Below are positions 5,852 through 43,740 of a stretch of DNA of 51,998 nt, piece by piece (position 1 is the stretch's first letter; each line of letters starts with the position of its first letter). The notes beneath the pieces are model-generated. The model saw only the letters and a list, made by a program, of their open reading frames with translations, had not been told where the DNA came from and made no database searches. The DNA lies in contig JAKSBV010000349.1 of assembly GCA_022360955.1 (NCBI GenBank), positions 1 through 51,998 of the forward strand, given 5' to 3'. Source of the stretch: Bacillota bacterium (lineage in GTDB: Bacteria; Bacillota; Clostridia; SK-Y3). A program made the position numbers and the translations under genes.

Positions 5852-5975
5852 AAAGAGATGTTTTTTATTTTTTTTGATATGGGGATTGCAGAGGGAATTT
5901 CCTTTTGCAGGTTTGAGAAGCGTGTTCAGATTGTGTAAACAGTCGTCGAAGGGAAACATAGGATTCCCTAGCCAA

Positions 5976-38285: not shown

Positions 38286-38332
38286 AAAAACTTAAGATGC
38301 TAATACGGAGAACTGAAGGAGGTATTATCCCC

Positions 38333-40141
38333 ATGTCTAACAAAAGACAGGATAAAATAAGAAATTTTTGCATCATTGCGCATATAGATCACGGGAAGTC
38401 GACATTGGCCGACAGATTGCTTGAGCAAACCGGTGTGCTGACCGCGAGGGAAATGGAAGAACAGGTACTTGATAATATGGATCTGGAGAGAGAAAGGGGC
38501 ATTACCATTAAAGCGCGGGCGGTCAGGATGATCTATAAAGCGCAGGATGGGGAAGAATATGTACTAAACCTGATTGATACACCGGGACATGTGGATTTTA
38601 ATTATGAAGTTTCACGAAGCTTGGCGGCTTGTGAAGCTGCGCTGCTTATCGTCGATGCAGCCCAGGGTATTGAAGCCCAGACCCTTGCCAATACTTATCT
38701 CGCATTGGAGAATGATTTGGAAATTCTTCCGATCATTAATAAAATAGATTTGCCTAGTGCCCAACCGGAACATGTAAAACAGGAGATTGAAGATGTGATC
38801 GGCATTGATGCCCATGATGTGCCGTTAATTTCCGCGAAGCAGGGGATCGGTATCGAAAGTGTATTGGAATACGTTGTGAATACAATTCCTGCGCCGGATG
38901 GAGAAGAAGATGCTCCTTTAAAGGCGTTGATCTTTGATTCCTATTATGACAGCTACAAAGGGGTGATTACCTACGTAAGAATCAAAGAAGGGCGTGTTGC
39001 GCCGGGGATGAAAATCAGAATGATGGCAACAGGGAAAGAATTTGAAGTGACGGAAGTGGGCTATTTAATGCCGAGCGGATTATATAATGCCGGTGAGCTT
39101 TTGGCCGGTGAAGTAGGATTTGTGGCGGCGAGCATCAAAAATGTCAAAGACACAAGGGTGGGCGATACCATCACAACCGTTGAAAACCCCACTGACGAAC
39201 CCTTGGCGGGTTACAAAAAGGTCAATTCTATGGTTTATTGCGGTATTTATCCCGCTGACGGTGCCCGCTATCAAGACTTGAGGGATGCCCTTGAAAAATT
39301 GCAATTAAATGATGCGGCGCTGACCTTTGAAGCGGAGACCTCCGTTGCCCTGGGATTTGGATTCCGATGCGGTTTTCTCGGATTACTGCATATGGAAATT
39401 ATCCAAGAACGTCTTGAAAGAGAATACAATCTTGATCTGGTAACGACGGCCCCTAGTGTTATCTATAAAGTCGTTAAAAGCGACGGTGAAATGTTCAATG
39501 TAGATAACCCCACCAACCTTCCCCCGGCAACGGAAATTGATTATATGGAAGAGCCGATTGTGAGGGCCTCTATCATGGTGCCGACGGAGTATGTGGGCAA
39601 TATTATGGAGTTGTGTCAGGATCGCAGAGGCATTTATAAGGACATGACCTATATTGAAGAAACACGTGTTGCTTTGAATTACGAACTCCCGTTAAATGAA
39701 ATCATTTATGATTTTTTTGACGCACTCAAATCCCGTACAAAAGGATACGCGTCTTTTGATTATGAATTGATAGGCTATCAAAAGTCCGATCTTGTCAAAT
39801 TAGACGTATTATTAAATGCTGAAATTGTAGATGCACTATCCTTTATTGTGCATAAAGAGAAAGCCTATGCCAGAGGGAGAAGGATTGCCGAAAAGCTAAA
39901 AGAATCCATACCGAGACAGCTTTTTGAAATACCCATTCAGGCCACAATAGGGAGTAAAATTATTGCAAGAGAAACGGTAAAAGCGATGCGTAAGGACGTA
40001 TTGTCCAAATGTTACGGCGGAGATATTACCCGAAAGAAAAAATTGTTGGAAAAGCAGAAGGAAGGTAAAAAGAGAATGCGGCAGGTTGGCTCCGTGGAGG
40101 TGCCCCAGGAAGCATTTATGTCGGTATTGAAATTAGATTAG
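38333..40141 (+). CDS. lepA: Elongation factor 4 (LepA), ribosomal back-translocase
   Basis: This 602-aa translational GTPase acts on ribosomes, probably during initiation or stalled elongation. G motifs: AHIDHGKST (G1), RGITIKA (G2), DTPGHVDF (G3), NKIDLP (G4) and SAKQGIG (G5). The LepA-specific C-terminus includes [19 protein letters not shown] and [18 protein letters not shown] 38333 is chosen because AAGGAGG lies 9 nt upstream; an ATG at 38297 is in frame but lacks a site. A strong terminator follows. In most Firmicutes hemW comes next; here a hydrolase gene intervenes. Confidence 0.97.
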
Positions 40142-40159
40142 ATCCCTATTAAGCAAACG

Positions 40160-40208
40160 GTTCTGTCGACGCGATTTGTTAAATCGTGTCGGTAGAACTA
40201 TTTTTTTA
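40160..40208 (+). terminator. Terminator of lepA
   Basis: An 18-bp stem (left GTTCTGTCGACGCGATTT, right AAATCGTGTCGGTAGAAC) with a GTT loop has two non-paired positions and is followed by a T-run. Confidence 0.92.
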
Positions 40209-40585
40209 GAAAAAAATAGTAAAAAATATAAAAAAATGCTTTACAACAAGTATATGTAAATGATATGATATAATAAAGTAATCTAAACATTGGATATATA
40301 TCCATACATTGGGTTATAATCAAGCACTTTACTGTGGATCTTTATTAACATGTATTATTAAGTGGCGAAAAGATACCCATATACGTAAGCCAAAAGAGTA
40401 TTGCTAAAGATAGCATATTGTATACCTTAAGATGCTTTTGAAGAAACAACAATGGTTTTGCGTTTTTGGTTCAGGTATGTATTCGATTTTAAAGCTCGGT
40501 ATCCATAAGGGGAAAGGTTTAAGGCCGAAGCCTTTGAAAATAAAAAGACTGCAGTCAAAAAAGAATGAAAGGGGACGATTATTGA
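40209..40585. other. Upstream region of the hydrolase gene
   Basis: No gene is present. A weak promoter candidate is TTTACA (40240-40245) and TATGAT (40264-40269) with an 18-bp spacer. If used, the hydrolase mRNA would carry a roughly 310-nt leader that includes repeat A copy 1. I see no recognisable c-di-GMP riboswitch. Confidence 0.4.
40372..40508. repeat. Dispersed repeat A, degenerate upstream copy
   Basis: The stretch ends with ATTCGATTTTAAAG, then GGTATCCATAA (40481-40508), which matches 42399-42426 at 26 of 28 positions. Weaker homology extends back to about 40444 (TTTTGCGTTTTT against TCTGCGTTTTTT). GATACC at 40372 mirrors GGTATC at 40498-40503. The outer arms of the downstream copy are missing. 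Confidence 0.65.
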
Positions 40586-42145
40586 ATGAAGCGAAGAAGA
40601 GTTAAATTGCAAAAATTACAGGCGATTGTATTGATTATTACAGTCTTAGCTTGTATGGGAGCAGGGATGGTCGGAGCCCAAACGACCGGAGATTATGCCG
40701 AAAGCTGTGATTCTATCGGCGCAAATGCGGCAAGAATTAGCTTTACCTCCTATTGTAATTCCTCCTATGTATATGTTCACTATATGGTTAACAACGGTCA
40801 GGATATGCACTATCTTATGAACCAGAACGAAAATACCTGGACATGGGATATAGGTGAGCTAAACAGCAACGATGTGATTGACTATTGGTTTACATACCAA
40901 AAAGACAATACACAATATGATACCGGTTGGTACAGCTATACCCATGACGGAAGTTCGCCCACACCAGACCCCGACCCCACACCGGACCCAGACCCGGACC
41001 CGGATCCCAATCCAGACCCAGACCCCAACCCTACACCGGATCCAAATAAAATATCGGGGAAGGGCTGCCCGAAAGATGGTAGTACCCTTTTAATTCTGGG
41101 ACAGGATTTACAATCGGTTTATAATTATGTAAATAGCGGTTATTTCCCAACACCGAGCGGGGTTACTTCATATCTTAACTTATATGCAATGAGAGATGCC
41201 AATCTAGGGTATGGCGGATTAGGTGAAGACCCAAACGGCAATGTTGTTTCCGATGTGGATTGGGGCGCCGGTCCTATCAATACGCGTAATGCCGCCTTCG
41301 GATATCCGGATTCAACCCTTGCGATCGGGGTCTATATGACGGAGCAGTACTATCCCGGCGGACTGACAAATATAGCAAATGGTGCATACGATGCGGAAAT
41401 CGATAGACTGGGTACATTTATCAAGTCTGTAGAGGGACCTGTTTTTGTAAGGATCGGATATGAGTTTGATGGTACTTGGAATGTGGGCTACAATAATGCC
41501 GAAAATTACAAAAAAGCTTATATAAGAGTGATCAACAGGCTTAGAGCTAAGGCCGACAACGTTGTTTCGGTATGGCAAGCATGTACTTCTCCTGTCGATG
41601 ACATACTGGAAGGGTATCATGAAAATATTGCCGACTGGTATCCAGGGGATGAATACGTAGATTGGATCGGATTCTCATGGTTTTTATCGCACCATGATCT
41701 ACAGTATTCTTTAGCCGATGAAGTATTGGCGTTTGCACGGAATCGTACCAAACCGGTACTGCTTTCCGAATCTGCACCCCAGGGCTACGACCTGAATGAT
41801 CTAACGAAGAAAGCCATCAGTGCAAGCGGTTTTTATCCGAACGATCCGTTTTACGGAAGCCCGTCAACAAATGCAAGAAATGTATCGGCCGATAAGATTT
41901 GGAACGATTGGTTCGTACCGTATTTTGAGTATATATACCAAAATGCGGATGTGATCCGCGGCGTTTCTTATATCAATGCCGATTGGGATTCACAGTCTAA
42001 ATGGGCACCTCCATATAATGAAGGATACTGGGGTGACAGTAGGGTAGAGAGCAATGCGACCATAAGACAGAAGTGGCTGAATGAACTCAATAGTGATTTT
42101 TGGAAGCATGGTTCACCGGACCTATTCAATCAATTACAGCCTTAA
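40586..42145 (+). CDS. Secreted glycoside hydrolase, GH26-like TIM barrel with N-terminal carbohydrate-binding module
   Basis: This 519-aa protein has a signal peptide (about 1-31; hydrophobic AIVLIITVLACMGAGMVG). A small beta-sandwich at about 35-118 (VYVHYMVNNGQDMHYLMNQN, then WTWDIGELNSNDVIDYWFTY) resembles CBM56-type glucan-binding modules. A Pro-Asp-rich linker at about 123-156 leads to a catalytic barrel. In the barrel, VRIGYEFDGTWN (Glu293) and PVLLSESAPQG (Glu395) look like the acid/base and nucleophile of a clan-A retaining enzyme. The closest fit by eye is GH26 (beta-mannanase/beta-1,3-xylanase group), but the substrate is uncertain. The ATG at 40586 follows AAAGGGGACGATTATTGA. It interrupts the conserved lepA-hemW order and is flanked by related repeats, suggesting acquisition by insertion. 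Confidence 0.78.
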   Translation: MKRRRVKLQKLQAIVLIITVLACMGAGMVGAQTTGDYAESCDSIGANAARISFTSYCNSSYVYVHYMVNNGQDMHYLMNQNENTWTWDIGELNSNDVIDYWFTYQKDNTQYDTGWYSYTHDGSSPTPDPDPTPDPDPDPDPNPDPDPNPTPDPNKISGKGCPKDGSTLLILGQDLQSVYNYVNSGYFPTPSGVTSYLNLYAMRDANLGYGGLGEDPNGNVVSDVDWGAGPINTRNAAFGYPDSTLAIGVYMTEQYYPGGLTNIANGAYDAEIDRLGTFIKSVEGPVFVRIGYEFDGTWNVGYNNAENYKKAYIRVINRLRAKADNVVSVWQACTSPVDDILEGYHENIADWYPGDEYVDWIGFSWFLSHHDLQYSLADEVLAFARNRTKPVLLSESAPQGYDLNDLTKKAISASGFYPNDPFYGSPSTNARNVSADKIWNDWFVPYFEYIYQNADVIRGVSYINADWDSQSKWAPPYNEGYWGDSRVESNATIRQKWLNELNSDFWKHGSPDLFNQLQP

Positions 42146-42184
42146 AACAACGTATAAAGATCATTAGTAAATATGCATACAAAA

Positions 42185-42213
42185 GAGACCGGGCGATTTT
42201 ATTGCCCGGTCTC
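42185..42213 (+). terminator. Hairpin after the hydrolase gene
   Basis: GAGACCGGGC and GCCCGGTCTC are perfectly complementary around a 9-nt AT-rich loop. The T-rich tail is weak, but the place, 40 bp after the stop codon, suits a terminator. Confidence 0.75.
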
Positions 42214-42226
42214 AGCTATTTTCCCT

Positions 42227-42530
42227 AATTTAACGCGTTGTGCCAGTTAAATAGTATTCCAAGAACTAAAGTTCCAAGGCTAAGAGCCTGTAAGCTTGCG
42301 CCGGGCCGCAGCAAAACTCGCTAAAGATACCCAACTTTAAACCTAAAAATACTATTTACATAAAAAACGATGATTCTGCGTTTTTTGTGTAAATATAAAT
42401 TCGATTTTAAAGTTGGGTATCCATAAAGCGCTCAAACAGTTGCTGCTTTCCCCCTTTGCTGCGCTAACAGGCTCTAACCCTATCCACAATGTTCTTTCCA
42501 TACTATTTAACTAGCACAACAGATTAATTT
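42227..42530. repeat. Dispersed repeat A, 304-bp nested palindrome
   Basis: The whole segment is a long imperfect palindrome centred near 42374. Paired blocks from outside in are 42237-42257 with 42500-42520 (21 bp, 1 mismatch), AGAGCCTGT with ACAGGCTCT, GCAGCAA with TTGCTGC, 42326-42341 with 42406-42421 (GATACCCAACTTTAAA, perfect 16 bp), and 42354-42369 with 42379-42394 (16 bp, 1 mismatch). It has no coding capacity and resembles a foldback or MITE-type element. No target duplication was confirmed. Confidence 0.85.
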
Positions 42531-42555
42531 ATACGCCCAGCATATATCATTTGCT

Positions 42556-42606: not shown

Positions 42607-43740
42607 ATGAAAAAACTAGGGTTATACATTCATATTCCGTTTTGCATACAAAAATGCTACTATTGTGATTTCAATTCCTATGCGGGTCTTGAGGCGTTGA
42701 GGCAAGAGTATGTCGGGTGTCTTATAAAAGAGATGCATATGTATAAAGAACGGTTGGGAAACAGGCGCATTGATACCGTTTATATAGGCGGAGGTACGCC
42801 TTCGTGCCTGCCGGAAAGCTCCATCATGGCGATCATGGACGCTTGTGCTGCCACATTTAACCTTTCCGCTCATTGTGAAATATCCGTTGAATCCAATCCC
42901 GGCACTTTGTCCGGACAGAAGCTGAGGGCGTTTAAAGCTCACGGAATCAACCGGCTAAGTATAGGCCTTCAATCATGGCATGATGCAGATCTGAAGCGTT
43001 TGGGCAGAATACACACCCAGAGGCAGTTTGTGGACAATTTTGACGCTGCTCGCCAAGCAGGGTTTGATAATATTAATATTGATTTAATGTTTGCATTACC
43101 CTCACAAAAGCCGGAACAATGGGGAAACACGTTGGATAATATTATCCTGCTGCAGCCGGAGCATATTTCCTGCTATAGTCTAAAAATTGAGGAAAGCACC
43201 CGATTTTATACGGACTATCATGCGGGCAGATTAAAGCTGCCCGATGAAGAGACAGATCGGCATATGTATCATCAAGCGTTGCAAAAGCTGGCACAACATC
43301 ATTACCGCCACTATGAAATATCCAATTTTGCCAAGACGGGCTTTGAATGCAGGCATAACTTGATATACTGGAAATGTAAAGACTATGTGGGGATAGGTGC
43401 GGGCGCCCACTCCTGCCTGGATGGAGAAAGGTATTCTAATATATGTGTTCCGGCAGAATATATCATGCAAATCCAAGACGGTTCTTTGCCTATTGCCGAA
43501 AGCACTGTTTTAGAAGTAAAAGACCGGATGGCGGAATTTATGTTTCTTGGCTTAAGGCTGTCGGAAGGCATTAGTGCGCAAACTTTTTATGATGCCTTTC
43601 AGACGGATATCCGATCCGTATTCGGCAGCCAAATTGATAAGTTCATTCGCTTAGGGTTAATGAAGCGGCAGAAAGAAAGATATCAGTTAACGGCAAAGGG
43701 CATGGATGTTTCCAATCAAATATTTATTGAGTTTATATAG
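42607..43740 (+). CDS. hemW: Radical SAM heme chaperone HemW
   Basis: This 377-aa protein is the HemW group of radical SAM enzymes, formerly annotated as oxygen-independent coproporphyrinogen oxidase. The 4Fe-4S motif is CIQKCYYCDF (CxxxCxxC), followed by YIGGGTPSCLP and SVESNPGTL. The heme-binding HNxxYW motif appears as RHNLIYW, then GIGAGAHSCLDG. HemW has this shorter N-terminus and lacks the extra residues of true HemN, which supports a heme-trafficking role. ATG 42607 lies about 8 nt after GAGGAG; the ORF's upstream ATG at 42556 is in the promoter. hrcA follows, as in Bacillus. Confidence 0.93.
   Translation: MKKLGLYIHIPFCIQKCYYCDFNSYAGLEALRQEYVGCLIKEMHMYKERLGNRRIDTVYIGGGTPSCLPESSIMAIMDACAATFNLSAHCEISVESNPGTLSGQKLRAFKAHGINRLSIGLQSWHDADLKRLGRIHTQRQFVDNFDAARQAGFDNINIDLMFALPSQKPEQWGNTLDNIILLQPEHISCYSLKIEESTRFYTDYHAGRLKLPDEETDRHMYHQALQKLAQHHYRHYEISNFAKTGFECRHNLIYWKCKDYVGIGAGAHSCLDGERYSNICVPAEYIMQIQDGSLPIAESTVLEVKDRMAEFMFLGLRLSEGISAQTFYDAFQTDIRSVFGSQIDKFIRLGLMKRQKERYQLTAKGMDVSNQIFIEFI

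Follow-up and report, generated by a model that had tools for sequence, protein, structure and literature searches.

A Putative GH26 Beta-1,3-Xylanase Gene Between lepA and hemW of a Bacillota Bacterium, and the Unequally Old MITE Copies That Flank It

The lepA–hemW Locus

The stretch of DNA analysed here, referred to as the window, comprises the 51,998 nucleotides of contig JAKSBV010000349.1 (positions 1 to 51,998, forward strand) from a bacterium of the Bacillota, class Clostridia (assembly GCA_022360955.1), whose genome is a draft of 522 contigs. According to the ORF list of the window, a forward-strand reading frame of 519 amino acids (40586–42145) lies between lepA, which ends at 40141, and hemW, whose ATG is found at 42607. 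This gene, which encodes a predicted hydrolase, is flanked by two copies of a MITE designated repeat A, and the downstream copy is nested in a second MITE, designated E2. The features of the locus are the following:

38297–40141, + strand: lepA, the left neighbour (ORF; 83–86% identity to lepA of five genomes of the same family)
40159–40199, + strand: intrinsic-terminator-like hairpin 3′ of lepA (scan; 19 pairs, then a T run)
40240–40269, + strand: putative promoter for the hydrolase gene, located 5′ of MITE copy 1 (TTTACA-18-TATGAT, the second hexamer being preceded by TG; 10 of 12 positions; a consensus match only, and weak evidence)
40405–40507, strand not applicable: MITE copy 1, an old, decayed and TA-bounded repeat A (identity, stem pairs, and fold against shuffles)
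40586–42145, + strand: gene for a predicted secreted GH26 beta-1,3-xylanase of 519 amino acids (ORF, Pfam, PDB match, alignment)
42185–42213, + strand: intrinsic-terminator-like hairpin 3′ of the hydrolase gene (13-bp stem with eight G–C pairs)
42226–42531, strand not applicable: E2, the second MITE, with MITE copy 2 nested inside (arms 42226–42266 and 42491–42531)
42322–42425, strand not applicable: MITE copy 2, a young repeat A that entered E2 at a TA (96% identity, intact stem, empty site elsewhere)
42607–43740, + strand: hemW, the right neighbour, which leads hemW–hrcA–grpE–dnaK–dnaJ (ORF; adjoins lepA in relatives)

Far upstream in the window, positions 5874–5956 match the Rfam Clostridiales-2 sRNA family with a score of 59.1, just above the gathering score of 58.6. 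Over the window and the region, Rfam assigned neither of the two repeats to a known RNA family, and the hairpin obtained only miRNA-type matches at chance level.

The Hydrolase

By inspection, the N-terminus of the hydrolase is signal-peptide-like. It is followed by a CBM56 (amino acids 41–113; Pfam CBM_56, E = 3.3e-21), a Pro/Asp linker, and a GH26 catalytic domain (amino acids 162–515; Pfam Glyco_hydro_26, E = 1e-6, above the cut-off). The top PDB match is the beta-1,3-xylanase XYL4 (2ddx; E = 2.8e-56), the catalytic residues of which are Glu116 and Glu212 (PMC7563424). Residues E293 and E395 of the hydrolase align with chain positions 116 and 212 of XYL4, so that both catalytic glutamates are present. 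The domain match and these two residues classify the protein as a predicted GH26 beta-1,3-xylanase, and homology to other GH26 enzymes points to beta-1,3-xylan, a xylan of seaweeds, as the substrate. The CBM56 would probably bind a beta-1,3-linked glycan, and the GH26 domain would cleave beta-1,3-xylan by the retaining two-glutamate mechanism of its family.

The same genome contains other genes of this type. A second CBM56 and GH26 protein, which also carries a CBM6/35-type domain, is encoded at C401 (3075–5117 of the extracted locus) beside ABC sugar-transporter-like genes. C321 holds a cluster with two further GH26-like genes, adjoining a sensor/AraC-type regulator pair.

The Junction in Relatives and the Origin of the Gene

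A previous reading of the window, made from the sequence only, had proposed that the hydrolase gene was inserted into the lepA–hemW junction, and the comparison with relatives bears this out. In five out of five same-family genomes lepA and hemW are adjacent, with about 15–190 bp between the coding parts, and the hydrolase was not found in any of these genomes. The hemW locus was read in 29 relatives: lepA is upstream in 25, the locus is cut by a contig end in one, and lepA is located elsewhere in three (G016, G030, and G040). Counted over the informative relatives, lepA lies directly 5′ of hemW, with the hydrolase absent there, in 25 of 28. Compared with the genomes of its family and the majority of the class (a comparison covering five same-family genomes, the wider class, and one species of the genus), the hydrolase gene is an addition to the junction in this lineage. 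The gap between the transcription unit of lepA and the hemW–hrcA–grpE–dnaK–dnaJ operon would be a permissive intergenic site in which the CAZyme gene settled.

It is important to consider whether the draft might have been misjoined at repeats, which would make the arrangement an artefact of assembly. Many contigs do end inside these repeats, for example C439 and C423 at base 1. Nonetheless, MITE copy 1 is only 78% identical to its nearest copy and is thus distinctive enough to assemble, which makes a repeat misjoin on the side of lepA and the hydrolase gene unlikely. Since the expected gene, hemW, comes next on the far side, an error would require two compensating joins. An assembly artefact is regarded as extremely improbable.

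G060 (Vallitaleaceae bacterium PL23b_bin.23) encodes the closest protein, with 74% identity across the full 519 residues, at a different locus; in that genome lepA and hemW are adjacent with no hydrolase between them. Between G060 and this genome, hemW and hrcA each share 43% identity. For lepA the value is 74%, which is lower than in the same-family genomes (83–86%) and in members of other families, for example G030 (79%). When G060 and this locus are compared, the DNA similarity stops at the hydrolase stop codon. In a GH26 tree the hydrolase and the G060 protein are sisters (support 100/99), followed in proximity by rows from Bacteroidota and Pseudomonadota. The 74% match in a genome as distant as G060, together with the absence from five nearer genomes, suggests horizontal transfer. 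Searches for the hydrolase in plasmids gave one weak, partial match of 35%, and searches in phages gave none. The codon usage and GC content of the gene resemble those of the neighbouring genes. Codon usage is in this case uninformative as a sign of transfer; being ordinary for the locus, it would imply that the transfer was not very recent or that the donor genome was similar.

The same codon usage is in agreement with vertical inheritance, by which the family ancestor would already have carried the gene, at this place or elsewhere in the genome, and the other genera would have lost it. Several losses within the family would also account for the pattern of presence and absence, and the paralogues of the genome itself (the CBM56 and GH26 gene at C401 and the two GH26-like genes at C321) could be seen in the same light. 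These paralogues are, however, distant, and the other nearest rows of the tree belong to other phyla. Moreover, the gene is missing from all five same-family genomes and yet has its close relative at another locus of a genome whose hemW is so divergent. Vertical inheritance is accordingly judged unlikely. The hydrolase gene was most likely gained horizontally, which means that this lineage would have acquired a gene for a secreted CBM56–GH26 beta-1,3-xylanase.

Repeat A, an IS630-Type MITE

By inspection, the 28-bp stretches at 40481–40508 and 42399–42426 agree at 26 positions. The sequence-only reading took this match as part of a larger element, and correctly so: the two stretches are the right halves of TA-bounded palindromes (40405–40507 and 42322–42425) and sit in a 72-bp direct repeat (78%). 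The repeat A unit has 103–104 nt from TA to TA (a palindrome of ~102 bp), is non-coding, possesses terminal inverted repeats, and occurs in both orientations. Genome searches with either of the flanking copies returned many matches of ~104 bp with common ends. A conservative pattern, whose count is a lower bound, matched 91 times forward and 75 times in reverse over 4.64 Mb, and hence repeat A lies in at least 91 places; the reversed-pattern control gave 0/0. This occurrence is far beyond chance. No convincing copy was found in 16 relatives, G060 included, where three single pattern matches did not resemble the element on visual inspection and occurred as seldom as matches to the control. Repeat A inserts at TA and duplicates it, as deduced from a single TA in the empty E2 at C5 and a TA on both sides in the window. 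It is an IS630-type, RUP-like MITE of ~102 bp, which would have multiplied in this lineage until it reached about a hundred copies.

Stem positions of repeat A covary between copies and subfamilies (for instance, TTTACCCAAA/TTTGGGTAAA at C148), with 55 cells changed on both sides versus 18 in shuffles, a count uncontrolled for the relatedness of the copies. This covariation suggests that template switching corrects the arms or that the hairpin is under selection.

The existence of a repeat family with a possible transposase elsewhere had also been anticipated, and both have been found. Next to the repeats counted above, the candidate transposase belongs to an IS630-type element at C400 (2269–3495 of the extracted locus), which has HTH and DDE_3 ORFs and directly adjoins a MITE copy. 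The ends of this element begin TAAAGATAACCAA and TATAGATAACCAA, as in repeat A, and the outer ~11–13 bp (TAAAGATAACCAA) are common to both. Repeat A was presumably mobilised by an IS630-type transposase. The transposase frame at C400 is split by an internal stop and constitutes the only DDE_3 match in this genome, although a draft assembly can miss copies; the repeat A family may therefore now be immobile here. Several further places match only the outer ~32 bp of the C400 element and perhaps represent a further MITE family that shares these ends.

E2 and the Nested Copy

E2 is a palindrome of ~306 bp (42226–42531) with 41-nt inverted arms that are 80% complementary, and related copies are present elsewhere in the genome. 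A version without the nested MITE, of 178 bp, occurs at C5 (...AACTCGC-TA-TCGCTCAAAC...), which provides a clean empty site for copy 2 (CTCGC-TA-TCGCTC). Composite versions with a nested MITE are found at several other loci. The E2-type family shows two end types, TTGTGCCAGTTAAATAGTATT and GGTGTATAAAATCTGGCTGAAG, with 20 related ends in the genome. The terminal repeat at 42237–42257, for which a matching transposase had been envisaged, is an inner portion of the 41-bp arm of E2, and a search extending 1.5 kb from the 20 matching ends revealed no transposase. The single long ORF scanned between E2-type ends is BtrH_N, not a transposase.

Independence of the Flanking Repeats

The two copies beside the hydrolase gene are very different in their state of preservation. 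In copy 1, the most diverged of 47, 21 of 33 stem pairs remain. Copy 2 retains all 33 and has 96% identity to its nearest copy. The two are 74% identical to each other, and copy 1 is closer to the other subfamily than to that of copy 2. Compared with shuffles, the hairpin of copy 2 has a z of −9.93 and that of copy 1 a z of 0.13, that is, no fold beyond shuffles. Copy 1 was also considered as a conserved RNA structure of the 5′-UTR and ruled out, as it has no stable fold. The flanking copies are two independent insertions of unequal age.

Pairs of repeat A are, in addition, commonplace in this genome. Among 59 listed copies there are five pairs less than 2.6 kb apart (C22, C137, C148, C190, and this locus), and three of the other pairs enclose a response regulator with a histidine kinase, a sulfatase, and an RDD-family protein, respectively. 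With 95–130 randomly placed copies, 4–7 pairs within 2 kb are expected, so the MITE pairs around ordinary genes follow from the copy number. Repeat A thus lies everywhere and flanks ordinary genes elsewhere, which weakens the argument that it frames this one.

These data bear on the proposal that the gene arrived as, or was framed by, a repeat-based insertion. In its explicit form, two repeat A copies would be the ends of a composite transposon, and an IS630-type transposase would have transported repeat, gene, and repeat together into the junction. The absence of the gene from the junction in relatives and its position between two members of a single MITE family are compatible with such an event, and MITE-bounded integron cargo with target duplications has been documented in Acinetobacter (PMC3934969). 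A TA flanks the whole unit of copy 1, gene, and copy 2, and each MITE has its own TA. However, the unequal decay and the low mutual identity are unlike what a recent composite element should show at its two ends, the ends differing in subfamily as well as in age. The right outer boundary would have to be E2, inside which repeat A has a TA of its own, the corresponding empty site being found elsewhere, and the unit has no second copy in the genome. Given these differences, the nesting, and the similar pairs around ordinary genes, the claim that the repeats framed or carried the gene finds no support, and a composite transposon is considered very unlikely. It is equally hard to credit that the MITE pair has transported the xylanase gene as a single unit, or is now able to, with the upstream copy decayed since then; were this true, an IS630-type MITE family would be spreading CAZyme genes.

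With about a hundred copies in the genome and separate, unequally old insertions at the locus, the repeats probably did not bring the gene in. Two independent insertions of one MITE, unrelated to the arrival of the gene, would account for the flanks: copy 1 would be an old insertion upstream of the gene, and copy 2 a young one that entered E2, itself downstream of the gene. In this order of events the repeats would be earlier or later bystanders. As a whole, the locus is with high probability an accessory xylanase gene, acquired most likely by horizontal transfer, in the lepA–hemW gap, with flanking MITEs independent of its arrival. For genomes with ~100 MITE copies, a general caution can be drawn: the presence of repeats on either flank of a gene is no evidence that they moved it.

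Comparison with Known Systems

All the parts of the locus are of known kinds, namely a GH26 xylanase and RUP-like MITEs of the IS630 type. The hydrolase resembles XYL4 (2ddx), AlXyn26A (7xjr), and Xyl88 of Flammeovirga in the GH26 sequence match (amino acids 162–515) and in both catalytic glutamates, but its host is a Bacillota bacterium and its N-terminal module is a CBM56, whereas CBM31 or CBM6 has been reported in characterised GH26 beta-1,3-xylanases (PMC7563424). The locus would contribute a CBM56-bearing beta-1,3-xylanase from the Bacillota, the gene for which has apparently been exchanged between distant bacteria and placed next to core genes.

The RUP of Streptococcus pneumoniae has 107 bp and ends like those of IS630-Spn1 (PMC3049150). 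Repeat A is similar in size (~102 bp plus TA), in being an AT-rich palindrome, in its ~100 copies, and in its IS630-type-like ends (RUP features: PMC3049150). This likeness is by reported features, not by RUP sequences, and the host is unrelated; for repeat A, the TA target is demonstrated in this genome, and its partner transposase is here a single copy with an internal stop. The family adds a RUP-like MITE with a clean example of a nested insertion and its empty site. In the blaPER-1 integron of Acinetobacter johnsonii, the same 439-bp MITE is found at both ends with 5-bp target duplications (PMC3934969). At both loci, two members of a single MITE family enclose a gene, but the copies described here are unequal and were inserted separately.
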